From Pelagicoccus enzymogenes (lineage in GTDB: Bacteria > Verrucomicrobiota > Verrucomicrobiia > Opitutales > Opitutaceae), in NCBI RefSeq assembly GCF_014803405.1, contig NZ_JACYFG010000002.1:124001-188000 (forward strand): DNA of 64,000 nt. The letters are read 5' to 3'. The position numbers and the translations under genes were made by a program. This document shows positions 17 to 16,076 of this stretch, one piece after another. How positions within the stretch are numbered: the first letter of the stretch is position 1; each line of letters opens with the position of its first letter. Below the pieces are notes generated by a model. The model searched no databases, was not told the origin of the DNA, and saw only the letters and a program-made list of their open reading frames with translations.

Positions 17-1900
17 ATGATTCGTTTTACCCTCGGCCTTATTACTTGTCTCCCCTTCCTCGCAGTCGCTCAAACAGACTACGTCAACATACCCGCTCCC
101 GAGCGCAGTAAAGAAGCCTACCTCCGGCAGCCTGGCGACTATCCGCCTAGCATCCACAGCCAAGAAAACCGGGAGACCCCCCGGGGCTCGATCGAGGTCT
201 TCGACTGGAACGACAGCGAAGTCTACCCCACCACCACGCGCCAGTACTGGATCTACACACCCGCTCAATACGATCCAAGCTCCCCAACTCCCGCGATCGT
301 TTTCCAAGACGGCCATTCCTTCATTCGAGAGGACCGCAACTTGAGGGCAAACCTCGTCATGGATTCGCTGATACACCAGGGGCTCATGCCGCCCACCATC
401 GGCATATTCGTCAATCCTGGACAACGCCCGCCCCTTCCCGACGAAGGCAAGGCCCCGCCAAATCCCAACCTCCCGCTCAATCGCCGCATCGAGTACGATA
501 GCACCAACACCGACTACGCGAAATTCCTGCTCAACGAAATCATCCCAGCTGTCAGAGCCCAACGAAACCTCAGCTCCGATCCTAGCGATTGGGCGATCGT
601 CGGCAATAGCTCAGGCGGGATGGCCGCCTTCAAAGTCGCGTGGCAACACCCTGACGTTTTTGGCAAAGTCATGGTACACAATGGCAGCTTTGTCGATTTG
701 CTGGGCGGTCACGTAGTGCCCGACTGGGTACGCAAGTCCGAGCCCAAGCCACTGCGCATTTCCCTCACCAGCGGTCCCTTCGACCTTCTAAACGAATACG
801 GCAGCTGGTGGGACGCCAACCGCGAATTGGCCAGCGAGCTCGCGGCCAAAGGCTACGATCTGCGAGCCTTCTGGGGCGACTCCGCGCATAATCCGACTTT
901 TGCAGGCGCCACGCTCTCAGAGACGTTACGCTGGATCTGGCGGGACCACCCCTACGTCTTGAGCCAAAGCATCTCCGCCCGATCTCCCTCAGAGACCGTA
1001 TTCGTGCAGATCCCAGCTCCGGCGATGCCTCAGAGCTACGAGAAAAAGCCCGCGGCGTACTCTCGCGCTCCGGGCGACTATCCGATCGCGCTCGAGGCCC
1101 GCAAAGTCCCCTCGACGCCAGCCGGCACGTTCAAACCGTACAGCATCGCGGAGAGCTCCATCTACCCAGGCGCCACGCAAGAAGCTTGGCTGTATGTACC
1201 TGACCAATACGATGCGAAACAAGGAGCCGGACTTGCCGTCTTCATGGACGGTCGCGGCTTTTGCAGCGAAAAGAGCCGCTTCCAGGCTCCCACCGTATTC
1301 GACAACCTAATCGCTGCCGGCGACATGCCACCGACGATCGCCCTCTTCATCGAAGCGGGCGACTACCCCGCTGAGCAAAGACCTTTCCCTCGCCCCATCA
1401 GTCCCAAACCCAAGCAAGCTTCCAACCGCCGCGTCGAGTACGACTCCATCGATGACCGATTTTCCCGTTTCCTGACCGAAGAGGTTATGCCGCAGATCGC
1501 AGCAAAATTCTCGCTCTCAACCGACCCGAAACGCCATGTCCTCATCGGCAACAGCTCCGGGGGATCCTGCGCTTTCACCGCCGCCTGGCATCGCCCGGAC
1601 GTATTTGGGAACGTAGTCAGCCATATCGGCAGCTTTACCGCCATTCGCGGAGCCCATCACTATCCGCAAATTATACGCGATTCCGAGCCACGACCCCTGC
1701 GCATTTTCCTGCTTAGCGGGGTCAACGACCAGATCAGCGTCTTCGGAGATTGGTGGCAGGCGAACCTCAGCCTTGCCCGCGAACTCGAAGCCAAACGCTA
1801 CGATCTGAAGACAGTCTGGGGAGACGGCGGCCACGACTCCCGCCACGCAGCGGCTGTCTTCCCCGAAACCCTCCGCTGGATCTTCCGCGACTGGAAATAA
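17..1900 (+). CDS. Secreted tandem-duplicated alpha/beta-hydrolase (enterochelin-esterase/CE1-like)
   Basis: A Sec signal peptide (MIRFTLGLITCLPFLAVAQ) precedes two homologous esterase domains, roughly residues 30-315 and 335-627. Each carries the nucleophile motif G-N-S-S-G (Ser198 and Ser513) and a late His in the context W-G-D-x-x-H (His291 and His606), so both halves look catalytically intact. Both begin with a PGDYP-containing segment, which supports internal duplication. Members of this fold hydrolyse esters such as acetyl or feruloyl groups on polysaccharides, or siderophore esters; the neighbouring sulfatases favour a carbohydrate substrate, but this is inference. An in-frame stop just upstream fixes the ATG at 17. 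The true substrate is unknown. Confidence 0.8.
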   Translation: MIRFTLGLITCLPFLAVAQTDYVNIPAPERSKEAYLRQPGDYPPSIHSQENRETPRGSIEVFDWNDSEVYPTTTRQYWIYTPAQYDPSSPTPAIVFQDGHSFIREDRNLRANLVMDSLIHQGLMPPTIGIFVNPGQRPPLPDEGKAPPNPNLPLNRRIEYDSTNTDYAKFLLNEIIPAVRAQRNLSSDPSDWAIVGNSSGGMAAFKVAWQHPDVFGKVMVHNGSFVDLLGGHVVPDWVRKSEPKPLRISLTSGPFDLLNEYGSWWDANRELASELAAKGYDLRAFWGDSAHNPTFAGATLSETLRWIWRDHPYVLSQSISARSPSETVFVQIPAPAMPQSYEKKPAAYSRAPGDYPIALEARKVPSTPAGTFKPYSIAESSIYPGATQEAWLYVPDQYDAKQGAGLAVFMDGRGFCSEKSRFQAPTVFDNLIAAGDMPPTIALFIEAGDYPAEQRPFPRPISPKPKQASNRRVEYDSIDDRFSRFLTEEVMPQIAAKFSLSTDPKRHVLIGNSSGGSCAFTAAWHRPDVFGNVVSHIGSFTAIRGAHHYPQIIRDSEPRPLRIFLLSGVNDQISVFGDWWQANLSLARELEAKRYDLKTVWGDGGHDSRHAAAVFPETLRWIFRDWK

Positions 1901-1986
1901 AGGGCTGCCCCAATTCCTCATAAAGGCGAGTTGCGAGCGAAGCGAAAAGCCTAGCCAGGCCCCGCCTTCCCTCCTTGGATGGGTAC

Positions 1987-3369
1987 ATGCCCCCCAAATA
2001 CCTCCTCCTCGCCCTGCTGCCGCTTCTTTTCGCATCCTGCTCACCGAGCAAAACCCCTTCCGCTCCACCCAACATCGTCATCATCTTTCTCGACGACGCT
2101 GGCTGGGCCGACTTCCAGCCCTTCGGCAAGGAGCTCGCCTACCCAACGCCTCATGTCGACCAACTGGCACGCGAAGGGCGCACCTTCACTCAGTTCTACG
2201 TCCCGCAAGCGGTTTGCTCCGCCTCTCGAGCCGCTCTGCTAAGCGGCAGCTACCCCGAGCGGGTAAAAGTGTTCGGCGCCCACGCGCCACGCGAGCGCGG
2301 ACTGGAACCTAGCTTTCCCATCCTCCCAGAAGTCCTCGGTCGACACGGGTACGCCACCGCCCTTTTCGGAAAGTGGCACCTCGGCGACCATGAAGACACC
2401 CGCCCGCATGCCCGCGGCTTCCAGGAGACAGCCGGCCTGATGTACTCCAACGACATGTGGAGCCTCCACCCAAGCAATCCCGAGTTCTGGGGCAAGTATC
2501 CGCTGCAGTATTGGGAAAACGGAGAGGTGACCGATCCCGAAATCACACCGGAGGATCAAAAGCAACTCACCAAAGGCTATACGGAGCGGGCTGTATCCTT
2601 CATTCAACGACACGCCGACCAACCGTTTTTCCTCTACGTTCCGCACTCCATGCCCCACACGCCGCTCTACGCCAGCGATTCGTTCGAGGGCAAGTCCGGA
2701 GCCGGTCTCTACGGCGACGTCATTATGGAACTCGACTGGTCCGTCGGGCAAATCAACCAAGCTCTCAAGGACAATGACCTGGAAGAAAATACCATCGTAA
2801 TCTTCACCTCAGACAACGGCCCCTGGCTCACCTTCGGCGAACACGCCGGCAAGACGCCCTTTCGCGAAGGCAAGCGAACCAGCTTCGACGGAGGCACTCG
2901 CTCCGCGCTCGTAGTTAAATTCCCAGGACAGATACCTGCGAACTCCCAGTCCGCCCAAACCTTCTGTTCCATCGACTTGCTGCCAACGCTTTGCCAACGA
3001 ATCGGCATAGATACCGCAAAAATGGAAATCGACGGCAAGGATCAATGGCCGATCTTAAGCGGAGACGGAAAAGCAGGCAATGGCCACGACTACTACGCCT
3101 TCACCACCGTCAAGCGCCTCGAGGCCATCATGAGCGGCGACGGCCGCTGGAAGCTCCATTTGCCGCACGGCTACCACACCGTCGTGGAGCCCGGCGTGGA
3201 TGGACAATTCGGAAAGTCGGAAAACCGCCAGATAGAGCTGTCCTTGTTCGACCTGAAAAACGATCCCTTCGAGACAAAAAACATCATCGCCGAGCATCCG
3301 GAGATCGCCAAGAGACTCCAAGCCTACGCGAACGCCCATCGCGCCCATTTCTTCGAGGCCCAGCCTTGA
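1987..3369 (+). CDS. Lipoprotein sulfatase (family S1 arylsulfatase-like)
   Basis: Type I sulfatase that would remove sulfate esters using a formylglycine. The formylglycine motif C-S-A-S-R starts at Cys77, and an N-terminal metal-binding segment FLDDAGWADF is visible. About 460 aa is normal for the family. The start chosen is the ATG at 1987, preceded by a GGATGG Shine-Dalgarno-like stretch; a TTG at 1975 would add four residues. The N-terminus is a lipoprotein signal (LLFASC, lipid-modified Cys18), so the enzyme is probably tethered to a membrane. The cysteine-type motif needs a maturase, and anSME at 30103 fits. Position 3 of the motif is Ala rather than the commoner Pro, a known variant. 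It follows the esterase by about 85 bp on the same strand. Confidence 0.9.
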   Translation: MPPKYLLLALLPLLFASCSPSKTPSAPPNIVIIFLDDAGWADFQPFGKELAYPTPHVDQLAREGRTFTQFYVPQAVCSASRAALLSGSYPERVKVFGAHAPRERGLEPSFPILPEVLGRHGYATALFGKWHLGDHEDTRPHARGFQETAGLMYSNDMWSLHPSNPEFWGKYPLQYWENGEVTDPEITPEDQKQLTKGYTERAVSFIQRHADQPFFLYVPHSMPHTPLYASDSFEGKSGAGLYGDVIMELDWSVGQINQALKDNDLEENTIVIFTSDNGPWLTFGEHAGKTPFREGKRTSFDGGTRSALVVKFPGQIPANSQSAQTFCSIDLLPTLCQRIGIDTAKMEIDGKDQWPILSGDGKAGNGHDYYAFTTVKRLEAIMSGDGRWKLHLPHGYHTVVEPGVDGQFGKSENRQIELSLFDLKNDPFETKNIIAEHPEIAKRLQAYANAHRAHFFEAQP

Positions 3370-3416
3370 CCCTGCAACCGCGGAGAGCCAGCCATCCGTC
3401 GCCAGCCTGTCGAAAG

Positions 3417-4031
3417 TCAGGGCTCGCTGCCCACGCTAGGCACCCCTTCTACATAGGCTTCTTCCGCGGCCGTCTCAAAGTGGTTGTTCAACTCTACGAA
3501 CATCTGCGAAAGCGCGTCCTCCATGGTTCTGGCATAAACTTGCTCGGTGCGTTCGTAGTTGCTCATCACCGACGGCATCTCGCGCTGCTTAAAGGTTCCC
3601 AACGTATTCAAATGGCCATACTTTTCCAGCCGCGCCCTGAGCACCGCGTTGATCTCCCCCATCTGGTCCTGCTCCCACCGAATGGCGAAAAGGTCCAGGA
3701 CCGGACCATCCCCAGGCGTCTCAAACTTCTCCAGCAGGTGCATATCCATAGGAAAACGGTAAAGCTGCGCGAGGCTGCGCATCGATGCGTAAAACTGCTC
3801 GTAGCGACGCTCTTCGATCGTGTCGGCCAAATCCGGGAAACGGTTCTCCAAAGCCAGATCCGGAGCCAAGGTGAAGCGAACGTACAAGGTCTCCTCTGGA
3901 TCCAAGAAGATATAAGTGTCGCTGTCCGGGACCTCCTGCAGCGTGTCGCAACCGGCTAGGCCCAGCGCCAGAACCGGGAGCAGCAGGATTCGGTTAACGA
4001 AGTTTCGTGGGGCTTTCAACACAGACAACAT
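3417..4031 (-). CDS. Putative lipoprotein of unknown function
   Basis: 204 aa. A hydrophobic N-terminus ends in the lipobox ALGLAGC, so lipid modification is likely. The mature part is acidic and predominantly helical-looking, with no catalytic motif that I recognise. It is convergent with the preceding sulfatase (47 bp apart) and lies about 60 bp downstream of the TPR gene on the same strand. It may therefore be the last gene of the sulfatase/redoxin/cytochrome operon, though the gap is larger than elsewhere in that operon. Function not assigned. Confidence 0.7.
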   Translation of the reverse strand: MLSVLKAPRNFVNRILLLPVLALGLAGCDTLQEVPDSDTYIFLDPEETLYVRFTLAPDLALENRFPDLADTIEERRYEQFYASMRSLAQLYRFPMDMHLLEKFETPGDGPVLDLFAIRWEQDQMGEINAVLRARLEKYGHLNTLGTFKQREMPSVMSNYERTEQVYARTMEDALSQMFVELNNHFETAAEEAYVEGVPSVGSEP

Positions 4032-4090
4032 ACACTAAGTGGGTACGGCCAAACTGCAAATCCAGTTGCAAAAGTCCCCACAAACTTGGC

Positions 4091-5419
4091 TCACTCCCTC
4101 AGTCCAAGCTGAACCGTCGCCACCTTGAGCTCGAAGCCTTCCAGTAAACCACTAGCGACCGCCAGCTCCAACTGCGGCCATGCGAGCTCTTCGTACCCTT
4201 GGGCAAAATGAAACTGCGCCCTATAGAATTCCAACAATGCTTGATCCGCTCCGGCCAACTCCGTTGCCCGAGAAGGCAGCGTCTTGAGCTCTGGAGCGTA
4301 GGACTTCATGTAATGCAACAAGGCGAGCAGCCACGGCGAATCGCTACGGCTGATCGCCCTCCTGAGACGCTTGCCCGAACGCTCCAAACGTTTCTCGTCA
4401 ACGCTGCTGGCCAAGGCGACCACGTAAGTCGCCAACTCGGAATCGCTCGCATTGGACCAAAACCCATGAGCTGCCTCAAGCCCCTGCAACACCTCCGCAA
4501 AGTCCCTCACCGCGAAGGCATAGCGGGCGCTGCCGCGATAGTCCGCATCCCTCTGGAAAACCTGCGGCAACAAGCCAGCCGCTTCCTCTAGCCTGCCGAG
4601 CGACAACAATGCGTCGAAACGGGAAAAGCAGACCTCCCCCATCTGTTCGGTAAACAGCCGCTGCATCTGGTACCACTCCTCGGGAGCATCCTTGTACTGC
4701 TTTTCCAGTCGCGTGACGGGCCGCTCCGTCACCGATCCGCCGATGCTTGTCACCAGTTCGGTCTCTTCATGGATCCCTACCACCTCGCGCTTGCTCTCCT
4801 CCAAATGGATCCCCGTCTCCAAGGTTTCCAGAGCGTTCGAGAGCGAGGCCGCCGCAGCAGCCAGACGTCGTTCCGCCTCCTCAACCTTGCCCGACTGCAG
4901 AAGCAGCTCCCCCAACCACTTCTGGTAGTCCCAACGCGGATCGACACTGTACTTCACCGCCTCGCGAGCCGCTCGCACTGCTAGGTCCGTTTCGCCTTTC
5001 AACGCCTGTATCTTCGAGTGCTGAAACCATGCTCCTGCATTCTCCGGAGCCACTTGCACCGCGTGCTGGGCAGCCCCTTCCGCCGATGCGTACTCCTCAC
5101 GCGCTAAATGCAATTTGGCGTAAACGATGTACGCAGCAGCCGAATGCGGTTCGATCTTCCGGGCCTCGTCCAACAGACCAAACGCTTTGCGGTGCTCGCC
5201 TTGCGCGATCGCTTTTCGAGCCTGCCCCAAAACGCGCTGGTACTTGGTAAGCTCCTCCTCATCGTGCTTGCCCAGCAGATCTGCCATTTGGGCATCGGCC
5301 AGCGTCCCTATCCTGCTCTCCACATCCGCTGCGTCCGCGCCCTCGGTCCCTATCGAAAGAATCGCCAACATTCCCCAAAGCCCGGCTCGCAATCTCATTT
5401 TGGATACTGCTCGTTTCAC
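4091..5419 (-). CDS. Secreted TPR-repeat protein
   Basis: 442 aa from a GTG start that overlaps the stop of the upstream gene by four bases (GTGA), which implies translational coupling; an ATG at 5398 is an alternative start. The N-terminus has a signal-like hydrophobic stretch ending near GADAADV. Tetratricopeptide-like helical pairs occupy about residues 55-170 (for example KAFGLLDEARKIEPHSAAAY and SAEGAAQHAVQVAPENAGAW), followed by a less regular helical C-terminal region. TPR proteins usually act as scaffolds. Coupling to the cytochrome/monooxygenase gene suggests it assembles or anchors that enzyme outside the cytoplasm; this is inference. Confidence 0.8.
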   Translation of the reverse strand: MKRAVSKMRLRAGLWGMLAILSIGTEGADAADVESRIGTLADAQMADLLGKHDEEELTKYQRVLGQARKAIAQGEHRKAFGLLDEARKIEPHSAAAYIVYAKLHLAREEYASAEGAAQHAVQVAPENAGAWFQHSKIQALKGETDLAVRAAREAVKYSVDPRWDYQKWLGELLLQSGKVEEAERRLAAAAASLSNALETLETGIHLEESKREVVGIHEETELVTSIGGSVTERPVTRLEKQYKDAPEEWYQMQRLFTEQMGEVCFSRFDALLSLGRLEEAAGLLPQVFQRDADYRGSARYAFAVRDFAEVLQGLEAAHGFWSNASDSELATYVVALASSVDEKRLERSGKRLRRAISRSDSPWLLALLHYMKSYAPELKTLPSRATELAGADQALLEFYRAQFHFAQGYEELAWPQLELAVASGLLEGFELKVATVQLGLRE

Positions 5420-7527
5420 TGTCCTATCCTTCTCCTTGTCTCGTTTATTCGTTCCGCGTCGCCACCGTTCCCTTGGGCGCGAGCAAACGCCTCAGCTTGC
5501 TCCAAAAGAACGTCCGCTGCTCCCTTCGATCCCACATCCGCCAAGCCCATCGCCAGGTCAATGATCCCATCGGGAAAAAGGACCGAACTGGCCAATCGAT
5601 CGACGCTGGGACGGACCGACGCATCCAAGGACAAAAGATAATCCATCTTCCGGCGGGCAAACCCAAGCTCCCCAGACTGGTATCCAAGGTACATCAACAT
5701 CAAATGACCGTCCACAAAGTCGGAATCGAGCGCGAGCGCGTCACCAACGGCTGCAAAAGCCTTTTCGACGCTTCCTCCCATGGCATACGCATCTGCCAAA
5801 TCCAAGATGTAAACCGGGTCCTTCCCATGCCAACGCATCCCCTCTTCCAAGCCTTGAACCGCCAATCGAGCGTCGCCAACTTTCAGATACGAGAGACCGA
5901 GCATTCGCCGTCCCTCCTTGTGAAGGGGATTCGCCAGCAGGAGCCGTTGCAGCGTCGCGATGCATTCCGCATCCAAATTGTCACGAGCCTGAACTCGAGC
6001 CAAGTTCATGTAGGCATCCTCTTGGTTGGCATTCGCATGGATCGCCTTCTCGTAAAACGAGCGGCTCAACTCCATCCGCCCCCGTTCTTCGTAGATGGCT
6101 CCCAAATTGTTCAAGGCCTTAGCGTGCCCAGGATCCAAGTACAGACATTCCTCGTAAGCCTCGATCGCCTCCGCGATACGCCCTTGATCAAAGAGGGCGA
6201 CAGCAAGGTTGTACCAACCCTGAATTTCCGTGTCCGCACGTTGCGTATCGTAGCGGGCAAGAGCCTCCTCCAACCGTGGCAGGTCATCGACATCCTTCAG
6301 TAGCAGCTGGATCGCCACCTCCCCCATCTCGTCGAAGCTCCCCCATCCTGCCCCTACCCGGCGCGGAGGAACGCTGGGATTGCGGAAATTGTCGGAGGAA
6401 TTGTCGTAGCTCAGTTGCATCACCAGCTCCGCCCCCGCAGGGATAGGCAAGGGCTCCTCAAAGCTATAATCGCTTTGCCAATTTAAGTCCCAATCGTCGA
6501 TGCGCAGCAACCAACGCGTCTCGCCATTGGGAAGCTCGACGAATACGCGGAAGTCCTTACCCAAGTAGTGGGCATGCGGAAAAAGGCCCAATGCCTCCAC
6601 GTCAACTGGCACTTCCACGCGCTCCTCCACCTCGTAATTCGATTCGCCAGCGGGGATATCGATATCGTACTCCCGCAAGAGCGCCACATAGCTCGCCCGA
6701 GTCGGTGGATCATCCGTAAAGTAAAGGCCGATGCGAGGCTTGACCGATTCGACTTTTCCGGTCGGCAGCAAATGCAGTTGCATCAGCAAATCTACTCCCG
6801 GATCCAATTCCCACGCAGTCCCGGGATACACTTGATACGGCACCTGACCGGGCGTCCAGCCGATGATGTGTCCACTGGGATTGATGGAGTCGCCCAAGTC
6901 TAAAGATTCGTATCCAGGTTCTGGATCGGCTTCGTCACGCAGCCGCTCCGCAACACCGGTCGTCAAGGCAAAGCTTGCGTGGTGCACCGCTAGCTTCGTT
7001 TGCGGCAGAAACTCGAACGCCCTCACGTATCGCTTCCGACCCAGGGGTACCGGAATAACGAAATTGCGAAACACGTCCGCTCCCTCCGCCTTCAGTTCGT
7101 AGGCCTCCGGCAATTCCAAAATCAAATCCGGTTGCCCCAATTCCCAACCACTGGTCAAGTCAGGCAATTGCGGCAGCGCCGCAAAATCCCCCGCCGGCGC
7201 TCCCGCATCATGCCAACGCACGATCAGATCGATCTCCGCATCGCTAAGCCGCCGTTCCCCCTTCATCCTAGGTCCGTGTCCCGGAATCGGTTTCCAAGGC
7301 GGCATGTACCGCTCTTCCACCACTTCCGCAATCTGCCGCGAACGACGTGCTGCGTCCTTGTATTCGATAAGTGGAAACGGACCGATTCCCTCGTCGTGAT
7401 GGCATGACACGCAACTTCGATACAAAATGGGAGCGATGTCTTCCGCAAAGCTTGGCTCCCCTTCGCTTGCTGGGCAAAGCGACGCGATAGCGGTGCAAAA
7501 AAGAGCGAGTCCAACTGGTCGAAGCAT
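5416..7527 (-). CDS. c-type cytochrome / copper type II monooxygenase (PHM-like) / TPR fusion
   Basis: 703 aa secreted protein in three parts. After the signal peptide comes a cytochrome c domain with C-V-S-C-H at 39-43 and a probable axial Met75. Residues about 125-415 match the two-domain fold of ascorbate-dependent copper monooxygenases (peptidylglycine hydroxylating monooxygenase, dopamine beta-hydroxylase). All six expected copper ligands can be placed: His182, His183 and His252 for the first site; His318, His320 (FPHAHYLGK) and Met401 (FDEMGE) for the second. The C-terminal 270 residues are TPR repeats (for example ALNNLGAIYEERGRMELS). Such enzymes hydroxylate C-H bonds using O2 and electrons; the attached heme may deliver the electrons. 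The substrate is unknown. The gene lies six bases after the redoxin gene in a sulfatase-led operon. Confidence 0.88.
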   Translation of the reverse strand: MLRPVGLALFCTAIASLCPASEGEPSFAEDIAPILYRSCVSCHHDEGIGPFPLIEYKDAARRSRQIAEVVEERYMPPWKPIPGHGPRMKGERRLSDAEIDLIVRWHDAGAPAGDFAALPQLPDLTSGWELGQPDLILELPEAYELKAEGADVFRNFVIPVPLGRKRYVRAFEFLPQTKLAVHHASFALTTGVAERLRDEADPEPGYESLDLGDSINPSGHIIGWTPGQVPYQVYPGTAWELDPGVDLLMQLHLLPTGKVESVKPRIGLYFTDDPPTRASYVALLREYDIDIPAGESNYEVEERVEVPVDVEALGLFPHAHYLGKDFRVFVELPNGETRWLLRIDDWDLNWQSDYSFEEPLPIPAGAELVMQLSYDNSSDNFRNPSVPPRRVGAGWGSFDEMGEVAIQLLLKDVDDLPRLEEALARYDTQRADTEIQGWYNLAVALFDQGRIAEAIEAYEECLYLDPGHAKALNNLGAIYEERGRMELSRSFYEKAIHANANQEDAYMNLARVQARDNLDAECIATLQRLLLANPLHKEGRRMLGLSYLKVGDARLAVQGLEEGMRWHGKDPVYILDLADAYAMGGSVEKAFAAVGDALALDSDFVDGHLMLMYLGYQSGELGFARRKMDYLLSLDASVRPSVDRLASSVLFPDGIIDLAMGLADVGSKGAADVLLEQAEAFARAQGNGGDAERINETRRRIGQ

Positions 7528-7533
7528 GGCAGT

Positions 7534-8157
7534 CTAATCCTTCGAAATGTAGCAACCAACCGCCTGTTCCGTACGAAAAGCAGGAGGACGTCCTTGGCAA
7601 ATATCGATCAACGTATCCCGCAAGTCATGCTGCAAGGGCGCTCGGCGCCACTTCCCAAACGCGAGGTACTGGTCATCAATACGACCATGGTAGACCAACT
7701 CGAATTCGCCGTTCTCCTTCCGCGCGAAAACCGAGCACTCCGGAGTCACGCTCGCCTGAGAACGAGACACCAAAACGTGTTCCCGATCGATCAAGGCTGG
7801 AATCTCCAAGTCGTACTCCTTGCGGTGCAACCGCACCGATTCTGACGTTGTATCCATGCTTGGATACACCGTATAGAACGTCACTCCCGCTTGCGACCAA
7901 TCCGAGGCGAGCGCCTTCATGCGGGGAACGTAGCGATTCGATATCGGGCAGTTTTCCTCAACAAAGAAGCATACAAGCGCCCTCGCTTCCGCGTCGGCGA
8001 AGACATCGACCTCACCCCCATCCAATCCAAGCGGGAAAGGCGGGGGGTCGGCCCAAAGGCAAGCTTGCCGGGCGAGAGCCGCCAGGATCAAAACGATGAT
8101 TCCACACTTACTGCTCAAGGTCCGAATAGCGATTTCTGGGGGTGACGTTCTGGCCAA
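7534..8157 (-). CDS. Membrane-anchored or secreted redoxin (thioredoxin-fold)
   Basis: 207 aa with an N-terminal hydrophobic segment (about 19-36) followed by a thioredoxin/AhpC-like domain. Cys70 sits in FFVEENCPISNRY, where peroxiredoxin-like redoxins keep their reactive cysteine, and Cys141 follows the cis-Pro-like VTP motif. There is no CxxC, so it is not a classical disulfide reductase. The start is not ATG: a TTG at 8157 (used here) lies three bases after the sulfatase stop, and another TTG at 8121 is possible; neither has a clear Shine-Dalgarno. It is immediately followed by the heme/copper monooxygenase. From knowledge of similar neighbourhoods it may protect that enzyme or handle its copper or redox state; this is inference. 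Confidence 0.78.
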   Translation of the reverse strand: MARTSPPEIAIRTLSSKCGIIVLILAALARQACLWADPPPFPLGLDGGEVDVFADAEARALVCFFVEENCPISNRYVPRMKALASDWSQAGVTFYTVYPSMDTTSESVRLHRKEYDLEIPALIDREHVLVSRSQASVTPECSVFARKENGEFELVYHGRIDDQYLAFGKWRRAPLQHDLRDTLIDICQGRPPAFRTEQAVGCYISKD

Positions 8158-8160
8158 GGG

Positions 8161-9813
8161 CTAGGGCTGAGCCGCGTGGTAGCCCTCGCGAAGCAGCTGA
8201 GACAGGTAGCGGACCTGCTCCTGGTAAAGCGGATCGTCAACGACGTTTACCTGCTCCAGGGGATCGCGGGTCAAGTCGTAGAGTTCGTGCACGACTTCCC
8301 CGCTTTGGTCCGTAGCGTGAGCCTTGTCCTTGCGCCACTCCGCATAACGAAAGTCCCTGGTGCGCACGCCACGCCCCAAACCTCCGATGGGAATCATGGA
8401 GAACGCAGCTTGCTTCCACTCTTGCTGCGGGTCGTCCAGCAACGGCGCAAAGCTGACGCCCTCGAACAGCGAGTCCTTCTCCAGCCCCCAAAAGTCGCAG
8501 AAAGTGGGCAGGAGGTCCACCAGCTCCACAATTTCGTCGCAGCGTTGGCCGTTGGCTTTCGCCCGCGGATCCCGCACCATCAGCGGCACACGGGTCGATT
8601 GTTCGAAGAGCGAGTACTTGCTCCACATTCCGTGCTCTCCGAGCTGGAAGCCGTGGTCCGAAAACAGCACGACAATCGTGTTGTCGGCCAAGCCATTGGC
8701 CTCGATCGCGTCTAGAACGATCCCGACCTGGGCATCGACGAAGCTGGCGCACGCGTAGTAGCTAGCCAACGCCTTGCGTTCGCGCTCGGGAGTCGGATCG
8801 AACTCCGGATAGAAGCCGTTGAAGATATCGTAGTTGCGACCGTTGCGACGCGCGACCTGCGGCACCTTCACGTCCTTGCTAGGAGTCGCCGGACTTAGTT
8901 CCATCTCATCGGAGTCGTAAAGGTCCACGAACTCCTTGGGCGCGAGCAAAGGTGTGTGCGTGGCATAGAATCCGAGCGACAGGAAAAAGGGCCCTTCCTC
9001 GCGCTTGGCCAAGTCCGCCAGCAAGCCAGAAGCGCTCCTGGCGATGCGTCCGTCCTCCATCATCTCCGCAGGCAAGCCGGAATCGCCAAGCTGCTCGGCA
9101 TGCAGCTGCTGGAAAGGTTTACGTAAAGGCCAATTGTCCTCCGCCCCTGCCGCTAGCTTGGCGTCGCGCTCTTCGCGAGCTTCCCGCAGCCGACGCGCCA
9201 TCTCTTTGTCAGCAAGATAGAACGCTTCCTCTTCGGGCTCGCGCGGACCGCCTTGCACCCACGGAAGAAAACGCAGCTCTCCCTCGAAACCGGGCGGCTT
9301 GTCGTAGGGATGTGAATACTCGAGGAAATCGTAGCCCTTGGCGAATCGTCCCGCATCTTCCCACTTGTGCACGATCTTGCCCGTCGTCGCCAGATAGGCT
9401 CCATCCTTGCGGGACAGGATTTCCGCCATACTCGGCGCCCCGGCGGGTATGAAGTCGTCCATCTCCTCCCCGTTGCCATAGACCCGCGTGGTGTCGGGGC
9501 GCAGCCCCGTCACGAAGGAGGCTCGAGAGGGGTTGCAAACCGGCCCTTGGCAATAGGCGCGGTCGAAAACCACCGCGGTTTCCGCAAAGCGATCTACATT
9601 GGGCGTTTGCACGACTTCGTTACCGTAGGCGCCGATCGCGAAGGCCGACCAGTCTTCGACCACGATCATCACGATATTGAGAGCCTCCTCCTGCTGATTC
9701 GAAGGCGCCTGTTGCGCAGTCGACACGCTCGCGCAAAACGCGCAAAGGGCGGTCAATGCTCCGAACATGCGAAAGGAGACGTGGCTTAGGGGCTTAAACT
9801 TCATTTCTAACAT
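8161..9813 (-). CDS. Secreted sulfatase (iduronate-2-sulfatase-like)
   Basis: 550 aa with a signal peptide (hydrophobic MFGALTALCAFCASVSTA). The formylglycine motif is C-N-P-S-R starting at Cys93; VEDWSAFAIGAYG stands where other sulfatases have the DDxxxxxxG metal-binding segment. FSDHGFQLGEHGMWSK, later in the protein, is the conserved Asp/His/Lys metal and sulfate site of iduronate-2-sulfatase-like enzymes. The ATG at 9813 has GAGAAG only two bases away, so the ATG at 9804 may be the real start. It is the first gene of a four-gene minus-strand operon with redoxin, heme/copper monooxygenase and TPR protein, and it is divergent from another sulfatase at 9996. The substrate is presumably a sulfated polysaccharide. 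Confidence 0.9.
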   Translation of the reverse strand: MLEMKFKPLSHVSFRMFGALTALCAFCASVSTAQQAPSNQQEEALNIVMIVVEDWSAFAIGAYGNEVVQTPNVDRFAETAVVFDRAYCQGPVCNPSRASFVTGLRPDTTRVYGNGEEMDDFIPAGAPSMAEILSRKDGAYLATTGKIVHKWEDAGRFAKGYDFLEYSHPYDKPPGFEGELRFLPWVQGGPREPEEEAFYLADKEMARRLREAREERDAKLAAGAEDNWPLRKPFQQLHAEQLGDSGLPAEMMEDGRIARSASGLLADLAKREEGPFFLSLGFYATHTPLLAPKEFVDLYDSDEMELSPATPSKDVKVPQVARRNGRNYDIFNGFYPEFDPTPERERKALASYYACASFVDAQVGIVLDAIEANGLADNTIVVLFSDHGFQLGEHGMWSKYSLFEQSTRVPLMVRDPRAKANGQRCDEIVELVDLLPTFCDFWGLEKDSLFEGVSFAPLLDDPQQEWKQAAFSMIPIGGLGRGVRTRDFRYAEWRKDKAHATDQSGEVVHELYDLTRDPLEQVNVVDDPLYQEQVRYLSQLLREGYHAAQP

Positions 9814-9995
9814 ATCTTCTCAAGTTTTAATTTCATTTTTGTTATTTGTGAAGTTTTTTGTTTTTGATTTTGGAACTTATTTCTTTCACTTTCGGCATGA
9901 TCGATAGCCAAAAGAGCCCCATTTCGGCACTTTTATTGAACTGTTAAGCCCGCTAAAGCTTAGATTCGCCCCTTCCTGAGAGTATCGTTTTCACC
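9814..9995. promoter_or_regulatory. AT-rich divergent promoter region between two sulfatase genes
   Basis: This 182-bp spacer separates divergently transcribed sulfatases. About 9820-9890 is strikingly T-rich on the plus strand compared with the GC-rich genes around it, as expected for promoters of both operons. I could not define -35/-10 boxes with confidence and saw no copy of the operator-like motif found at 19340 and 20598. Confidence 0.5.
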
Positions 9996-11396
9996 ATGAC
10001 CCCCCGACTGATTATTGGCCTCGCCCCCCTGGCGGCCTCCATCGCTTTCAATTTTGCAAGTCAAGCCAGCGATCGGCCCAACGTTCTGTTCATCATCGCG
10101 GACGACCTCAACCACTACGGATTCTCCCACGAGCAAGCCGGCATCCAAACGCCGCACTTCGACACGTTCCGCAAGAGCGCCGTCACCTTCCCTAACGCCG
10201 TCTGCAACGCGCCTTCCTGCGTCCCTTCGCGAGCGTCCTTTCTCAGCGGGCTCTACCCTTACAGCACCGGCTCCTATCTCAACGGCAGCGACCCTTGGAC
10301 CAAGCCAGCCATGGACGAGATCGTCTCCCTGCCGGAGATCTTCAAGCAAGCGGGCTACATCACCTGGGGATCCGGAAAAGTCTTCCACACCAAAATCACT
10401 CCCGAACGCAAGGAAGCCGCTTTCGACAACGAGCCTTGGGCTGGCGACTTCGGGCCTTTCCTCAAGGAGGAAGACCAAATGGGCAGCAAGTGGTGGGGCG
10501 CCGGCGCCTGGGACGGACCCGATACGGACTTCCCGGACGTCGTAAACGCAGAGAAGGCCATCGCCTTCCTGAACGAAGTCCACGACCGCCCCTTCTTTAT
10601 GGTCCTCGGCCTCTGGCGTCCGCACACCCCTTTCACCGCCCCGCAGCGTTTCTTCGACCAGTACGACCGAGACACGCTTCCCTTCCCGCCCGCGAGCTTC
10701 CAAAGCGGCGACCTGGACGACGTCCCGCAACAGGGCATCGAACTCTCTCGGGTCTGGGGAGAGCGCTGGATCGTATCCGGAGAATCAGACAAGGAAAAAT
10801 GGAGAGACATTCTCTGGGGCTACGCCGCGACAACTAGCTTCGCCGACGACACGACCGGACGGGTCATCGAAGCTTTGGATGCAAGCCCCTACGCCGACAA
10901 CACCATCGTAATTTTCGTATCCGACAATGGATACCACGTGGGCGAAAAGGAACACTTCGAAAAGTCGACCCTCTGGAGCGCTTCGGCTCGCGTCCCCTTC
11001 GCGATTCGTCTCCCGGGCAAGCAAAACGCCGCCGCAGTCTCAGATGCAACGGTCGGCTTGATCGATATTTACCCTACCTTGGTCGACTACTGCAGCCTTC
11101 CCCAGCCTCCCCAAGGTACCGACGGCCTGTCGATGCGGCCTGCCCTCGAGCAGCCAAGCTACAAATGGGACCGACCTGCTATAACGGTTTACGAAGTCGA
11201 CCACTTTTCCGCCACCGACGGCTCGTATCGCTACATTCGATACGGCGACGGCAGCGAGGAGCTCTACGACCATTCAAGCGATCCCCACGAATTCGAAAAC
11301 CTCGCCGACGAGCCGCGCCTCGCCGGCATAAAACGCCGATTCCAAAAGTGGATCCCTGAAAGATGGGCTCCCAGCCTCGGTGGCCGCCAAGGTTAA
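9996..11396 (+). CDS. Secreted sulfatase (iduronate-2-sulfatase-like)
   Basis: 466 aa with a signal peptide (MTPRLIIGLAPLAASIAFNF). It has the N-terminal metal motif ADDLNHYG, the formylglycine motif C-V-P-S-R beginning at Cys75, and FVSDNGYHVGEKEHFEKST, the conserved Asp/His/Lys part of the active site. It would release sulfate from a glycan after maturation of Cys75. It heads a plus-strand set with a GH27 glycosidase only 24 bp downstream, then a Na+ symporter and a GH43 lipoprotein, consistent with stepwise desulfation, hydrolysis and uptake. It resembles the divergent sulfatase at 8161 but is shorter and clearly a separate paralogue. Confidence 0.92.
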   Translation: MTPRLIIGLAPLAASIAFNFASQASDRPNVLFIIADDLNHYGFSHEQAGIQTPHFDTFRKSAVTFPNAVCNAPSCVPSRASFLSGLYPYSTGSYLNGSDPWTKPAMDEIVSLPEIFKQAGYITWGSGKVFHTKITPERKEAAFDNEPWAGDFGPFLKEEDQMGSKWWGAGAWDGPDTDFPDVVNAEKAIAFLNEVHDRPFFMVLGLWRPHTPFTAPQRFFDQYDRDTLPFPPASFQSGDLDDVPQQGIELSRVWGERWIVSGESDKEKWRDILWGYAATTSFADDTTGRVIEALDASPYADNTIVIFVSDNGYHVGEKEHFEKSTLWSASARVPFAIRLPGKQNAAAVSDATVGLIDIYPTLVDYCSLPQPPQGTDGLSMRPALEQPSYKWDRPAITVYEVDHFSATDGSYRYIRYGDGSEELYDHSSDPHEFENLADEPRLAGIKRRFQKWIPERWAPSLGGRQG

Positions 11397-11420
11397 TGCG
11401 CTTCCCCCCGAACAAAAGAC

Positions 11421-12737
11421 ATGAAAAATACAGAAACGTATCCGCATCACGCATGGGCCCAAACCCCGCCTCTCGGCTGGAACAGCTTTATCTGCTACGG
11501 CTCTTCCGTAACCGAAAGACAATTCAAGGAAAACGTTGACGCCTTCGCCGACAAGCTCGCCAGCACCGGCTGGGAATACTGCGTGCTCGACTTCTGCTGG
11601 TCCCATCCGGATCCTGGTCCCGTCGCCAACCCGAATCAAGAAGCTGGATACACGCCTCATCTCGCCTCCGACGAATTCGGACGCCTCCTCCCTGCAGTGG
11701 AGCGCTTCCCCTCGGCAGCCAATGGAGCAGGACTCAAGCCGCTCGCCGACTACACCCACTCCAAGGGGCTGAAGTTCGGGCTCCACATCATGCGCGGTAT
11801 CCCCCGTCAAGCAGTGGAAGCGAAAACGCCTGTCAAAGGCACCAACGCCACCGCAGCCGACATTGCCCAAGTCGGCAGCAAGTGCACCTGGCTGAACCAC
11901 ATGTACGGGGTCGACATGGAACAGGAAGCAGCCCAAGCCTACTACGATTCCCTGTTCGAACTCTACGCGGAATGGGGAGTCGACTACATCAAGGCCGACG
12001 ATATCCTCACCGACTATCCAGGCCCCTACCATGCCGCCGAAATCGAAGCCATCCACAAGGCCATCGCGAAATGCGGACGGCCTATGGTGCTTAGCCTTTC
12101 TCCTGGACCGGCACCCGTAAACCAAGCCCAGCACCTCGGCGCCCACGCCAACATGTGGCGCATGTCAGCCGACTTCTGGGACCGATGGAGGAAACTCTAC
12201 GAGATGTTCTACCTCTGCAACGCCTGGACCGACCTAGGCGGCCCCGGCTACTGGCCGGACGCGGACATGCTCCCCATGGGACGCATCGCCCTCTGCGGAC
12301 CGGAAGGTGAGCCCCGGGACTCCCTTTTCACCACCGAGGAGCAACGCACCATGATGACGCTCTGGTCCATCTTCCGCTCTCCGCTCATGCTCGGCGGCGA
12401 CGTCCCCACCCTGGACGAAACCACCCTCTCGCTGCTCACCAACGAGGAGGTACTGGCAGCCAACAAGTATGGAGAAAATCCATACCAACTCTATCGCCAC
12501 CAAACGCTCGTGGCTTGGATTTCCGACGATTCGAAATCGAGCGACAAGTTCCTAGCTCTCTTCAACCTCGCCGACAAGACCGATACCGTACCGGTGACGC
12601 TTGAGCAAATCGGTCTCGGTCCCAAGGTCGCCCTGCGCGACCTCTGGAAAAAGGAAGACCTTGGCGCCACGGAGCAAACCATCCGCAAAGAACTGTCAGC
12701 CCACGACTGCGCCTTCTACCGCGTATCCGCCCGCTAG
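11421..12737 (+). CDS. GH27-like alpha-galactosidase family enzyme, cytoplasmic
   Basis: 438 aa with no signal peptide. The N-terminal TPPLGWNSFICYGSSVTE is the family GH27 signature (TPPMGWNSW in characterised alpha-galactosidases). The segment VDYIKADD places the nucleophile at Asp193, and MSADFWDRW places the likely acid/base at Asp251. GH27 enzymes retain configuration and cleave terminal alpha-galactosides or related beta-arabinopyranosides. Because it lacks an export signal it probably acts on oligosaccharides after uptake, which fits the SSS symporter gene that follows. Exact specificity cannot be read from sequence. Distance to the sulfatase upstream is 24 bp, so they are probably co-transcribed. 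Confidence 0.88.
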   Translation: MKNTETYPHHAWAQTPPLGWNSFICYGSSVTERQFKENVDAFADKLASTGWEYCVLDFCWSHPDPGPVANPNQEAGYTPHLASDEFGRLLPAVERFPSAANGAGLKPLADYTHSKGLKFGLHIMRGIPRQAVEAKTPVKGTNATAADIAQVGSKCTWLNHMYGVDMEQEAAQAYYDSLFELYAEWGVDYIKADDILTDYPGPYHAAEIEAIHKAIAKCGRPMVLSLSPGPAPVNQAQHLGAHANMWRMSADFWDRWRKLYEMFYLCNAWTDLGGPGYWPDADMLPMGRIALCGPEGEPRDSLFTTEEQRTMMTLWSIFRSPLMLGGDVPTLDETTLSLLTNEEVLAANKYGENPYQLYRHQTLVAWISDDSKSSDKFLALFNLADKTDTVPVTLEQIGLGPKVALRDLWKKEDLGATEQTIRKELSAHDCAFYRVSAR

Positions 12738-12745
12738 TTACAAGG

Positions 12746-12831
12746 TAGGGATGCCGCTCGCGATATCCCTTACCACCCAATAACTCCACAATCCCCCCGA
12801 CCAAATCACCTGCCGGCACAAACGTGCCGGT
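12746..12831. promoter_or_regulatory. Two short inverted repeats between GH27 and the symporter
   Basis: Two small dyads are visible: AGGGAT...ATATCCCT near 12748-12768 and CCGGCACaaacGTGCCGG near 12813-12830. Neither is followed by a run of T, so they look like attenuator or REP-like hairpins rather than a strong terminator. Whether transcription continues from GH27 into the symporter is unclear. Confidence 0.4.
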
Positions 12832-12872
12832 GGGATTACCCCGAAAACCAATACCGTCACTCCCCTCCGATC

Positions 12873-14828
12873 ATGGAACACACCTTTGAACTGCACGTCC
12901 TCGACTACGTATCCTTTTTTGGATACTTCGTCGCCCTTAGCTTTATCGGCTACATTGCTGGCAAAAACAAAAGCGAAGATGCCGCCGACTACTTCCTGGC
13001 TGGCCGATCCCTGCCTTGGTACGTGGTGGGCAGCTCCTACATCGCGGCCAATATCTCGACCGAGCACTTTATCGGACTCATCGGAGCCGCTGTCATCTAC
13101 GGCATCAGCGTCGCGACAGGCGAGTGGTCGACAGTCATCGCTTTCAGCTTCCTGATCTGGCTCTACATTCCCTATCTCCTGACCAGCAAGGTCTACACCG
13201 CGCCAGAATTCCTGGAAAAGCGCTTCAACAAGCCGATGCGAACCTTGTTCGCCGGCGTTACCCTTGCGATCAACGTATTCGCTTTTCTAGGACCGGTCAT
13301 ATACGGCGGAGCCCTCGTCTTGGAAGAACTGTTCTCCATCCCCATCATTTGGTCGATCGTCATCATCGCCATCCTCTCGGGCTTCTGGGCGATCTGGGGC
13401 GGACTCAAGTCCATCGCCCTGATGGACGTTCTCACTATTCTTGTCATGGTCGGAGGCGGCCTCACCGTGACCTTCCTTGGCTTCTACTACCTCGGCGACG
13501 GGCAGGGCCTTATCGCCGGTGTCAAAAAGATGATCGATGTGAACGCCGGCAACGCGGAATTCGCCCAAAACTTCATAGCCGAGTCCGTGCCCCATATCAT
13601 GCAAGGCTCGGAGCCCGGAGACGAGTACGGTCGACTCTCCGTGCTGCAGCCTCTCAACCACTATTCCAACCCTTGGTCCCACTGGGTTCTGAGCTTCTTC
13701 TACATCGGTCTTTGGTATACCGTCATCAACCAGCACATGATCCAAAAAGTGCTGGCGGCCAAGGACCTCTACCACGCCCGCATGGGCATGGTGTTCGCCT
13801 CCGGACTGAAACTGCTGCTTCCCTTCATCGTGGTCGTTCCCGGTCTCATCTTCTTCGCCATGAACCCTTTGATTGAAACTCCAAAAACTGGATACGGAGA
13901 AGCAGAGGCTGCAGTTCTAGCCGAACTTGGAATCGAGTACCAACTGGAAGAAGACAATTTCCTTCTCGATCCTACGGATGCCACCATCGTCGTCGACTAT
14001 CCAAACGGAGCGCAAATCGTTGCCGACGCTTATCGAGCCCGCAACGGTGAGCTCTCTAGCGAGGAGGCGGAAGCCGCCATGGCCGCTCTCAGCAAAGCTC
14101 GCTTCGGCTACTCCAGCGACAAGGCCAACAAGACCTACATCCTCATGATCCAGGATCTCGTTCCTCCCTTCATGATCGGCGTACTCCTAGCCGCTCTCTT
14201 CGGAGCGATCCAGTCAACGGTCTGCTCGGTCCTGAACTCTACTTCGACCGTCTTCACCATCGACTTCTACAAGATGTTCCTCAAGCCCAACGCCACCCAA
14301 GCCGACGAAGTCGTGGTCGGTCGCGTCGCGGGGGCGATCATCTTGGCGCTATCCATCGGCATGGCGATCCTCTTGGCAACCGCCACCAAGGTGAACCTCT
14401 TCGTATTCATTCAGATCCTCTACATCTTCTTCGCCCCACCCTTCTCCGCAACCTTCCTCATGGGATCGCTATGGCGGCGCGTCAGCGGCTTCGACGCCTT
14501 GATCTCGACTATCGTGGCGCTCGCATTCGCGTCCGCCCTCAAGGTCATGGAGTTCTACTTCCCGGAAAACCTGCCCGACCTGCTCAAGCCCTTCGCGAAC
14601 CAAGGCGTCGCGGTCTGGGTCATCTGCATGATTACCCTGGCGATCTCAACCGTGCTCACCGCTCCCCCTCCCGCCAAAAACGTCTCTGACGACCTCACCT
14701 TCAACTGGAAGAAAATGGATTTCGGCGGCGGCCTCGGCGACAAGTGGTACAAGAGCGTCACCCTTTGGTGGGCAGTCGCCCTTGGAGGCATGTTCTTTTT
14801 CGTGATCCTTTTCTCGATCGTCCTTTAA
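12873..14828 (+). CDS. Sodium:solute symporter (SSS/SGLT-type)
   Basis: 651-aa polytopic membrane protein of the solute:sodium symporter family, with many hydrophobic segments (about 14). The N-terminal region LAGRSLPWYVVGSSYIAANIS and EHFIGLIGAA is the SGLT-like signature of TM1-TM2. It would import a sugar or oligosaccharide with Na+ across the cytoplasmic membrane, in keeping with a marine organism. A soluble insert at about residues 330-415 carries acidic stretches. The position between GH27 and GH43 suggests transport of a glycan breakdown product, perhaps a galactoside; the substrate is inferred from context only. Confidence 0.92.
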   Translation: MEHTFELHVLDYVSFFGYFVALSFIGYIAGKNKSEDAADYFLAGRSLPWYVVGSSYIAANISTEHFIGLIGAAVIYGISVATGEWSTVIAFSFLIWLYIPYLLTSKVYTAPEFLEKRFNKPMRTLFAGVTLAINVFAFLGPVIYGGALVLEELFSIPIIWSIVIIAILSGFWAIWGGLKSIALMDVLTILVMVGGGLTVTFLGFYYLGDGQGLIAGVKKMIDVNAGNAEFAQNFIAESVPHIMQGSEPGDEYGRLSVLQPLNHYSNPWSHWVLSFFYIGLWYTVINQHMIQKVLAAKDLYHARMGMVFASGLKLLLPFIVVVPGLIFFAMNPLIETPKTGYGEAEAAVLAELGIEYQLEEDNFLLDPTDATIVVDYPNGAQIVADAYRARNGELSSEEAEAAMAALSKARFGYSSDKANKTYILMIQDLVPPFMIGVLLAALFGAIQSTVCSVLNSTSTVFTIDFYKMFLKPNATQADEVVVGRVAGAIILALSIGMAILLATATKVNLFVFIQILYIFFAPPFSATFLMGSLWRRVSGFDALISTIVALAFASALKVMEFYFPENLPDLLKPFANQGVAVWVICMITLAISTVLTAPPPAKNVSDDLTFNWKKMDFGGGLGDKWYKSVTLWWAVALGGMFFFVILFSIVL

Positions 14829-14836
14829 AAACTCAT

Positions 14837-14901
14837 TGTGGGAAGCGGCCTTGTGCCGCGATTGCATTGACTAATCGCGACACAAGGTCGCTTCCCACAC
14901 A
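14837..14901. repeat. REP-like inverted repeat, TGTGGGAAGC family, copy 1
   Basis: Long imperfect palindrome: TGTGGGAAGCGGCCTTGTGC on the left, with its near complement ending in CTTCCCACACA on the right, separated by about 15 bp. A second copy with the same arms lies at 52017-52080. It sits between the symporter and the GH43 gene. Confidence 0.85.
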
Positions 14902-14927
14902 AACGTCCTTTCTAAACCAATCCCGTA

Positions 14928-16076
14928 ATGAAATTCCCCTTACACCTCATCCCGCTTCTAGCCCTTTTAGCAGCCTGTACCCAATCCCCCGATACCGATA
15001 AATCGGAAGCCCAAACCTTCACCTACCAAAACCCCATCCGCAACGGCATTGACGAAAACGGCCTGCGCGACTGCCAAGTGCTGCGCGACGGAGACTGGTG
15101 GTACATGACCGGCACCTCCTATCCGCACTGGAGTCGGCAAGAGGACGAGGACGACGAGTCGACCTTCAACAAAGGCGTGGCCCTCTACCGCTCCAAGGAC
15201 TTGCTCAATTGGGAATTCCGCAAGTACATCGTAGAACGAGGGAGCAAGGACAAGTGGTACTATCGCCGCTTCTGGGCCCCCGAGATTCAAAAGATAGGAG
15301 GCAAATACTACGCTCTCTTCAACGCTCGCAACGACCTCGTCGGCGCCGTAGGCCAAAACACTGGATACGCAGTCGCCGACCACATCGAAGGTCCCTACAC
15401 CGTCGTGACCGAAGACAAGCCGCTCTCCAACGGCAACGACTTGACCTTCTTCGAGGATGACGACGGCAAGGTCTGGGCCTTCTGGAACCGCGGCAAGGAG
15501 TTTGGCATCGGCTTCGCCCAAATCGACCTCGCCACCGCCACTCTTCTGACTGAGCCAACCAGCGCCATCCAACCGGGAAAAGTCGACTACGCTTACAACC
15601 CTGACGGTAGCCGGGCCAAGACGCCTGGCTACGACGGCCGCCCCATCGACAAGGTCGCCAAGTACTACGCATGGGACAGCATCGGCATCGAGGGCGCTTA
15701 CGTCGTGAAAAGACACGGGACTTACTTCCTCTTCTATTCGTCGTGGACGCGCGGATACGAGATCGGCTACGCCACAGCCGACAAGATTACCGGCCCCTGG
15801 ACCAAGCACCCAAGCAACCCTTTCTACGGCGCCCAGAATCCGAAAGCCGTCGAAAAGAACGGCTTCGAATTTACAGGCGATCCCGACCAGTACTTCAACC
15901 AAGTCGGCCACAACGAGATTTTCACCGGCCCCGACGGACGCCTGTGGCTCTCCTGCCATGGAATCGGCGAAGACGGAGTGCCCATGCTGGTGATCGACCC
16001 CTTGGACTTTCATGAAGACGGAACCGTCACCTCCAAGGGGCCCACCTACACTCCACAAACAATCTCTCTCAAATAG
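14928..16076 (+). CDS. GH43-family glycosidase lipoprotein
   Basis: 382 aa. A lipoprotein signal ends in LLAAC (Cys17). The five-bladed-propeller GH43 catalytic triad can be placed at Asp48 (GLRDCQ, base), Asp171 (GNDLTFFED, pKa modulator) and Glu255 (GIEGAYVVKR, acid). NPI near the N-terminus and FWAPE at about 115-119 are also typical. GH43 enzymes are inverting beta-xylosidases, alpha-L-arabinofuranosidases or exo-galactosidases; the sequence alone does not choose among them. Membrane anchoring suggests it trims oligosaccharides outside the cytoplasm for the preceding symporter. A strong terminator follows at 16104. Confidence 0.88.
   Translation: MKFPLHLIPLLALLAACTQSPDTDKSEAQTFTYQNPIRNGIDENGLRDCQVLRDGDWWYMTGTSYPHWSRQEDEDDESTFNKGVALYRSKDLLNWEFRKYIVERGSKDKWYYRRFWAPEIQKIGGKYYALFNARNDLVGAVGQNTGYAVADHIEGPYTVVTEDKPLSNGNDLTFFEDDDGKVWAFWNRGKEFGIGFAQIDLATATLLTEPTSAIQPGKVDYAYNPDGSRAKTPGYDGRPIDKVAKYYAWDSIGIEGAYVVKRHGTYFLFYSSWTRGYEIGYATADKITGPWTKHPSNPFYGAQNPKAVEKNGFEFTGDPDQYFNQVGHNEIFTGPDGRLWLSCHGIGEDGVPMLVIDPLDFHEDGTVTSKGPTYTPQTISLK

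Follow-up and report, generated by a model that had tools for sequence, protein, structure and literature searches.

A predicted bacterial cytochrome c-fused dicopper protein of the PHM/DBH superfamily and its redoxin partner in Pelagicoccus enzymogenes

The peptidylglycine monooxygenase PHM and dopamine beta-hydroxylase (DBH) are textbook animal enzymes with ascorbate as electron source. Rat PHM contains several disulfides, and a DOMON domain precedes the copper core of DBH. The lytic polysaccharide monooxygenases (LPMOs) are single-copper enzymes of a different fold. PHM is cited as a double jelly-roll fold in PMC8812541, and PMC6123673 names H107, H108, H172, H242, H244 and M314 as the copper ligands of the rat enzyme and gives an inter-copper distance of about 11 Å. 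In PMC8981238, a bacterial c-type cytochrome domain is described as reducing and activating copper LPMOs. Here we analyse a gene of Pelagicoccus enzymogenes (Verrucomicrobiota; Opitutales) whose 703-amino-acid product carries a cytochrome c domain and a PHM/DBH-type dicopper domain on a single chain. The gene lies in a stretch of 64,000 nucleotides (assembly GCF_014803405.1, contig NZ_JACYFG010000002.1, positions 124,001 to 188,000), which is called the window in the following and to which all coordinates refer. The features of the gene are:

5416..7527, minus strand: 703-amino-acid protein with a signal-like N-terminus, a cytochrome c domain, a PHM-like dicopper domain and a tetratricopeptide repeat (TPR) tail
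7138..7470, minus strand: monoheme cytochrome c domain, approximately residues 20-130 (Pfam Cytochrome_CBB3 below cut-off, 0.0079; domain model Z 6.3 to PccH)
7399..7413, minus strand: CVSCH site for heme-c attachment, residues 39-43 (both Cys and the His invariant in 58 of 58 sequences)
7303..7305, minus strand: Met75 of MPPW, likely axial heme ligand (invariant in 58 of 58 and 34 of 34 sequences)
6253..7137, minus strand: PHM/DBH-type dicopper domain, about residues 131-425 (structural Z 21.7 to 3mib; PDB profile match 1.7e-7)
6979..6984, minus strand: His182 and His183, CuH ligands, aligned to rat H107 and H108
6772..6774, minus strand: His252, CuH ligand, aligned to rat H172
6568..6576, minus strand: His318 and His320, CuM ligands, aligned to rat H242 and H244
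6325..6327, minus strand: Met401, CuM ligand, aligned to rat M314
5416..6252, minus strand: TPR tail (TPR_1 1.9e-14 and others)

Relatives of the protein were found widely. Residues 20-425 are matched at E ≤ 1e-6 in 59 of 252 family genomes and in 18 of 387 phylum genomes (the host genome is in both sets). One scan delivered 498 candidate stretches, 468 of which were confirmed by tblastn; 80 were kept, which gave 79 named loci. These had been fetched with the motifs [IV]GWTPGQxP and [YF]DNS[ASE]xN[IPF]RN, neither of which contains copper ligands, and the records that carry the family are titled Verrucomicrobiota, Acidobacteriota, Planctomycetota, Gemmatimonadota and Myxococcota. Within the 6.2 Mb host genome, the whole 703-residue query returned its own gene and three weak matches to the TPR part only. 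Because the family is this widespread in sequence data, it is neither a new fold nor a singleton; what sets it apart is the fused architecture. A literature search, for which subscription journals were mostly outside reach, found no paper on a bacterial heme-fused PHM, and as far as searched this agrees with an initial annotation of this DNA, made from the sequence alone, which had held that no function was established.

Two alignments were used. A1 (34 diverse sequences) draws on 33 of the 37 PHM segments located in numbered genomes, L083, L095, L097 and L099 being omitted because they were odd, incomplete or interrupted by a stop codon; at L105, L111 and L115 no PHM open reading frame (ORF) was called. 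A3 (58 sequences) consists of the window protein and 57 of the 79 named loci, which are 43-60% identical to it, and all 79 were then checked for the ligands (L192 has one internal stop). The genome-numbered and the named loci overlap heavily (L081 and L121 are the same place), and the two sets of counts are thus not independent. The six copper ligands and the CxxCH site are invariant in A3 and therefore represent more than a chance arrangement. The ligands are intact in all 79 named loci, and CxxCH together with Met75 in 78 of them, the exception being L152, where the contig starts inside the gene. Met401, part of a DEM motif, is a gap in the A1 rows L112 and L118, whose segments end short of it. 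His220, which the initial annotation did not list, is variable (His in 40 of the 58 sequences of A3); the invariant Met75 was likewise absent from its list.

An AlphaFold2 model of the cytochrome-plus-copper part, calculated on A3, reached a predicted local distance difference test score (pLDDT) of 93.3 and a predicted template modelling score (pTM) of 0.90. When this model was searched with Foldseek, chains of PHM and DBH occupied ranks 1-31 at E values of 4e-14 to 1e-9 (best 4.4e-14 for PHM and 3.9e-12 for DBH). With VIA-align, residues 115-401 of the model were superimposed on residues 62-332 of PHM (3mib; Z 21.7, 3.0 Å, 260 residues), human DBH (4zel) followed with Z 19.8 at 3.9 Å over 271 residues, and the next fold was PNGase F with Z 8.3. 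The A1 profile found PHM among the PDB sequences at E 1.7e-7, in an alignment that brings the HH, H, HxH and DEM motifs into register with the rat ligands, and the Pfam family Cu2_monoox_C is matched by 40 of the 58 A3 members at E ≤ 0.05 (best 2.2e-6). Since fold, ligands and profile homology agree, the 703-residue protein can be assigned to the PHM/DBH superfamily, as a bacterial branch in which a cytochrome c is fused to the copper core. The initial annotation had named the six ligands and the CxxCH site, had given the ligand spacings as 69, 66 and 81 residues, and had read the protein as a fusion of heme c and a PHM/DBH-type dicopper monooxygenase; residues and spacings are as it described them, and the fusion is supported by their invariance, by the fold match of the model and by the PDB profile match. 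The overlay on rat PHM that it had suggested gave the expected fold, and no orthologue devoid of the His and Met ligands, which it had said would count against it, occurs among the named loci. The protein is predicted to bind copper at both sites and to act as an oxygenase.

The likeness to PHM lies in the double jelly-roll and the six ligands in register, whereas the window protein is bacterial, is fused to a cytochrome c and a TPR tail, and differs where PHM holds its substrate. The residues R240, N316 and Y318 of rat PHM, which we take to bind the peptide carboxylate, correspond in the profile alignment to F316, E403 and A405. The commonest letters at these positions in A3 are Tyr, Glu and Trp, and Arg, Asn and Tyr are thus not kept. 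The copper domain has no cysteine in the window protein or in 47 of the 58 A3 members. As PHM is the nearest solved fold, a genuine peptidylglycine hydroxylase, trimming exported peptides, comes to mind. However, peptide amidation appears unlikely because the presumed carboxylate-binding residues are not kept and the copper domain is cysteine-free, and no lyase was recognised among the Pfam-scanned neighbours, although no lyase-specific search was made. We regard this explanation as very improbable.

The 25 Pfam matches listed for the 703-residue protein up to E 0.1 are all to TPR or TPR-like families except Cytochrome_CBB3 (0.023) and Haem_bd (0.074). Cytochrome_CBB3 is matched by 42 of the 58 A3 members at E ≤ 0.05, and the domain modelled alone has a pLDDT of 82.8. 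From its sequence, attachment of heme at the CxxCH site can soundly be predicted, Met75 is the likely axial ligand, and electrons would flow from the heme to the copper sites. DBH shares the fold of the copper domain and has its DOMON domain where the window protein has a monoheme cytochrome c. A functional parallel is offered by Cbp2D and CjX183, for which PMC8981238 describes a cytochrome c that reduces a secreted copper monooxygenase and can replace ascorbate; in the window protein, in contrast to CjX183 and its LPMO, cytochrome and copper domain are on one chain.

The gene directly upstream encodes a redoxin:

7534..8157, minus strand: redoxin, 207 amino acids, with a TTG start and a signal-like N-terminus (Pfam AhpC-TSA 3.7e-6)
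7948..7950, minus strand: Cys70 of CPxxN (22 of 22 distinct redoxins; 27 of 27 alignment rows, two genes being present twice in the alignment)
7552..7554, minus strand: Cys202 in the GC motif at the C-terminus (all 22 distinct redoxins; 26 of 27 rows, the remaining row being truncated by its contig)

It resembles the two-Cys redoxins 2ywi and 2cvb (profile E 1.3e-22 and 1.5e-19; CP and C-terminal GC motifs aligned) but differs from them by its signal-like N-terminus and its tie to PHM. This redoxin is a better-conserved partner of the PHM gene than the sulfatase described below; it is common and far from universal. The initial annotation had named it without drawing on it. In the most distant clade, all 13 scored loci carry it as an N-terminal fusion to the cytochrome. 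Six of the nine intermediate loci (L096-L104) have it as immediate same-strand upstream neighbour, and a seventh, L098, by coordinates, where it had been missed since genes were called as longest ORFs, which leaves starts and small neighbours approximate. The five-row clade of the window (the window, P. mobilis, G510, M30B9 and G020, starred in a tree that is midpoint-rooted for drawing only) has the redoxin immediately upstream in all rows but P. mobilis. In the second locus set, which comprises 76 named loci plus the window (L139, L167 and L184 were dropped), it lies within three genes in 16 loci including the window and is fused in one; flanks are short in 7 of the 18 Opitutales loci and 26 of the 58 others, and neighbour counts are thus lower bounds. 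The host genome holds one high-scoring copy (238 bits, the next 56). Twelve copies of at least 160 bits were counted in 11 Opitutales genomes, which had been picked for having a PHM gene, and 8 of the 12 adjoin the PHM gene by coordinates. The redoxin may be an old partner that was lost or moved in many members. At L119, a very large ORF of 2153 amino acids (L119:1758-8219) carries the cytochrome-PHM module at its C-terminal end (residues 1767-2130) and also matches the redoxin. L188, a metagenome-assembled genome titled 'Bifidobacterium breve', likewise has a redoxin next to a PHM-TPR gene; such a gene is unexpected in that species, and the bin label is therefore probably wrong.

Judged from sequence and model, the 703-residue protein is on balance probably an exported type II dicopper monooxygenase with a tethered cytochrome c; it would work independently of ascorbate, act on a non-peptide substrate and be helped by the redoxin. 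All four proteins of the gene group described below have a signal-peptide-like N-terminus (judged by eye), and a periplasmic or surface location would be the best-supported account. The N-terminal heme c, held by CxxCH and Met75, would take single electrons from a periplasmic donor, standing in for ascorbate, and hand them on to the first jelly-roll copper (H182, H183, H252). The second copper (H318, H320, M401) would bind and activate O2 and hydroxylate a C-H bond in a small substrate, other than a peptide, that is positioned between the two sites. The two-cysteine redoxin would support the enzyme, most likely by copper loading or protection or by clearing peroxide from uncoupled turnover, and the TPR parts may dock it to partners. 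In this species the unit is placed beside a sulfatase in a carbohydrate/sulfatase island, and the sulfatase may release the substrate or remove sulfate from it.

Several results weigh against this account. The 703-residue protein itself has no match to the Pfam families Cu2_monooxygen or Cu2_monoox_C at E 0.1. Foldseek found nothing under E 0.001 for the model of the cytochrome domain (best 0.58, cytochrome c6A), and a second look at this heme-less AlphaFold2 domain gave weak fold matches, namely PccH (Z 6.3, 2.1 Å, 75 residues), YhjA (Z 4.5) and hydrazine synthase (Z 4.2). As to the redoxin, it adjoins PHM in just 4 of the 15 clade-A loci, in one of them on the opposite strand, and P. mobilis, which by path length in the tree is the closest relative, is without an adjacent copy. 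Four of the 12 strict redoxins (G012:C32, G008:C308, G550:C102 and G558:C62) lie away from PHM genes.

A different role might be suggested by receptors near the PHM genes. A TonB-dependent receptor of one family is found within three genes of PHM in 14 of the 18 Opitutales loci, and at 7 of the 9 loci with genome counts vs 1.5 expected (P about 7e-5; neighbour probabilities are rough, as related loci are treated as independent). Of the 58 loci outside Opitutales, 19 have an Oar-like receptor no more than three genes away, and 11 have an ASPIC/UnbV protein nearby. These patterns hint that the substrates are linked to uptake and vary from lineage to lineage. The receptors, together with the two-Cys redoxin partner, would also suit a protein that is no oxygenase, in which the sites bind or carry copper, the heme and the redoxin handle Cu(I)/Cu(II) and thiol redox, and the receptor takes up copper or a chelate. 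We consider such a copper carrier improbable: the protein has the full CuH/CuM set, including the Met of the O2-copper, and both jelly rolls as in catalytic PHM and DBH, and the window copy has no such receptor within three genes.

For the window copy, a partnership with a TonB receptor was rejected, the nearest one of that family in 104 kb (40 kb upstream plus the window) being about 40 kb from the operon. In the window's five-row clade the receptor is mostly absent, G510 alone having one within three genes. The best receptor of the host genome scores 772 bits vs 1507-1757 for the top eight in relatives, a gap that is partly due to construction since the profile was built from PHM-linked receptors; two of these eight (G333:C63 and G563:2339308) do not adjoin a PHM gene. 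As a separate observation, PHM genes of Planctomycetota and Verrucomicrobiota lie near ASPIC/UnbV-FG-GAP proteins and multiheme cytochromes at L193 (L193:148-6207), L163, L146 and L186, with neighbour families assigned from representatives; these neighbourhoods may possibly form a wider electron-transfer cluster.

The copper protein and the redoxin are the inner genes of four minus-strand ORFs in a row (8161-9813, 7534-8157, 5416-7527 and 4091-5419), the outer ones being:

8161..9813, minus strand: S1-type sulfatase, probably exported, 550 amino acids, first gene, a lineage-specific neighbour (Pfam Sulfatase 3.9e-45, SGSH_C 7.4e-18)
9523..9537, minus strand: CNPSR, residues 93-97 of the sulfatase (from the sequence)
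4091..5419, minus strand: TPR protein, 442 amino acids, with a GTG start and a signal-like N-terminus, last gene (TPR_19 1.6e-10)

The genes are joined by a 3-nucleotide gap, a 6-nucleotide gap and a 4-nucleotide GTGA overlap at 5416-5419, and the four joined genes of the initial annotation hold up at these coordinates. The first gap assumes the TTG start of the redoxin given above; an alternative TTG 13 codons on would widen it to 42 nucleotides, and the operon reading is unaffected by this choice. We infer that the four genes are co-transcribed. A scan of the operon for promoters and terminators performed no better than on shuffled sequences and gave no evidence either way. CNPSR is presumably the C-x-P-S-R sulfatase signature, the Cys of which becomes formylglycine. 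The closest solved chain to the sulfatase is the arylsulfatase 6hhm (E 1e-53), followed by iduronate-2-sulfatases.

Directly around the operon, a carbohydrate island at 17-16076 contains a double esterase (17-1900), two further sulfatases (1975-3369 and 9996-11396), a Melibiase_2 alpha-galactosidase, an SSF symporter and a GH43 gene. An anaerobic sulfatase maturase (radical SAM/SPASM) is encoded at 30103-31362 on the plus strand, about 20 kb from the operon (TIGR03942 505.7 vs a cut-off of 349.45 bits); it is the type of enzyme that forms the sulfatase formylglycine.

The initial annotation had proposed that the enzyme, together with its co-operonic sulfatase, oxidatively attacks a sulfated glycan, lipid or metabolite. 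The tight gene spacing, the sulfatases, glycosidase genes and symporter nearby and the maturase agree with this, as do co-directional sulfatases near PHM in L130, L132, L136 (where the gene overlaps PHM by 4 nucleotides) and L137. A redoxin-sulfatase pair stands beside PHM in L132, and a sulfatase-redoxin pair is convergent with PHM in L135. A sulfatase lies within three genes of PHM in 10 of the 18 Opitutales loci vs 2 of the 58 non-Opitutales loci. However, the order sulfatase-redoxin-PHM on one strand is found in the window alone among 77 loci and is absent from the 37 scored loci of the other set. The sulfatases near PHM are divergent, with 21-36% identity to the window sulfatase over the best segment, and the genomes are rich in such genes: the host has 55 sulfatase matches including gene pieces, corresponding to about 50 genes, and its relatives have from 14 to at least 102. 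A sulfatase is present within 5 kb in 6 of 12 clade-A loci (L083, L090 and L095 are excluded for their short contigs) vs 2.1 to 3.4 expected (P 0.009 to 0.08), the expectation being a range because the counts for G550, G558, G333 and G563 are the best 98 of 258-334 candidates. Since the genomes are this sulfatase-rich, the count is mildly unusual at most. A sulfatase as conserved partner throughout the family was rejected on these grounds, and a link at the level of the lineage is kept as a possibility. The data fit a recurrent but loose link inside Opitutales with no fixed unit, and a joint attack on a sulfated substrate seems to us rather unlikely.

A TPR-like match is present in 57 of 77 PHM ORFs. 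The TPR protein of the last gene is a weakly conserved partner; L122 has a relative (about 29% identity, 196 amino acids), which lies three genes downstream of PHM. Small genes upstream of PHM or the redoxin in L081, L082, L088 and L202 have no clear homology to each other. Directly downstream of the operon, a gene at 3417-4031 on the minus strand encodes a 204-residue lipoprotein-like product without a Pfam match at E 0.001, and the ORFs called at the scored loci include no relative at E 0.01. A protein of 1763 residues, encoded at 52098-57389 on the minus strand, has no Pfam match at E 1e-5.

With regard to the family as a whole, we tentatively suggest a wider picture, which is possible and clearly less secure than the monooxygenase reading of the window protein. 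A widespread, ascorbate-independent bacterial oxygenase module of redoxin, cytochrome c and PHM, with the redoxin as ancestral partner, might hydroxylate nutrients other than peptides at carbons adjacent to O, N or S, for instance to remove methyl ethers from marine sugars, and might have been recruited beside sulfatases and TonB receptors in marine Verrucomicrobiota. If the monooxygenase reading is true, the built-in cytochrome c would show how PHM/DBH chemistry can run without ascorbate, and the protein would offer a one-chain system in which electron entry into the first copper could be studied. It would also point to an untried class of secreted oxygenases in bacteria that are rich in polysaccharide degradation.

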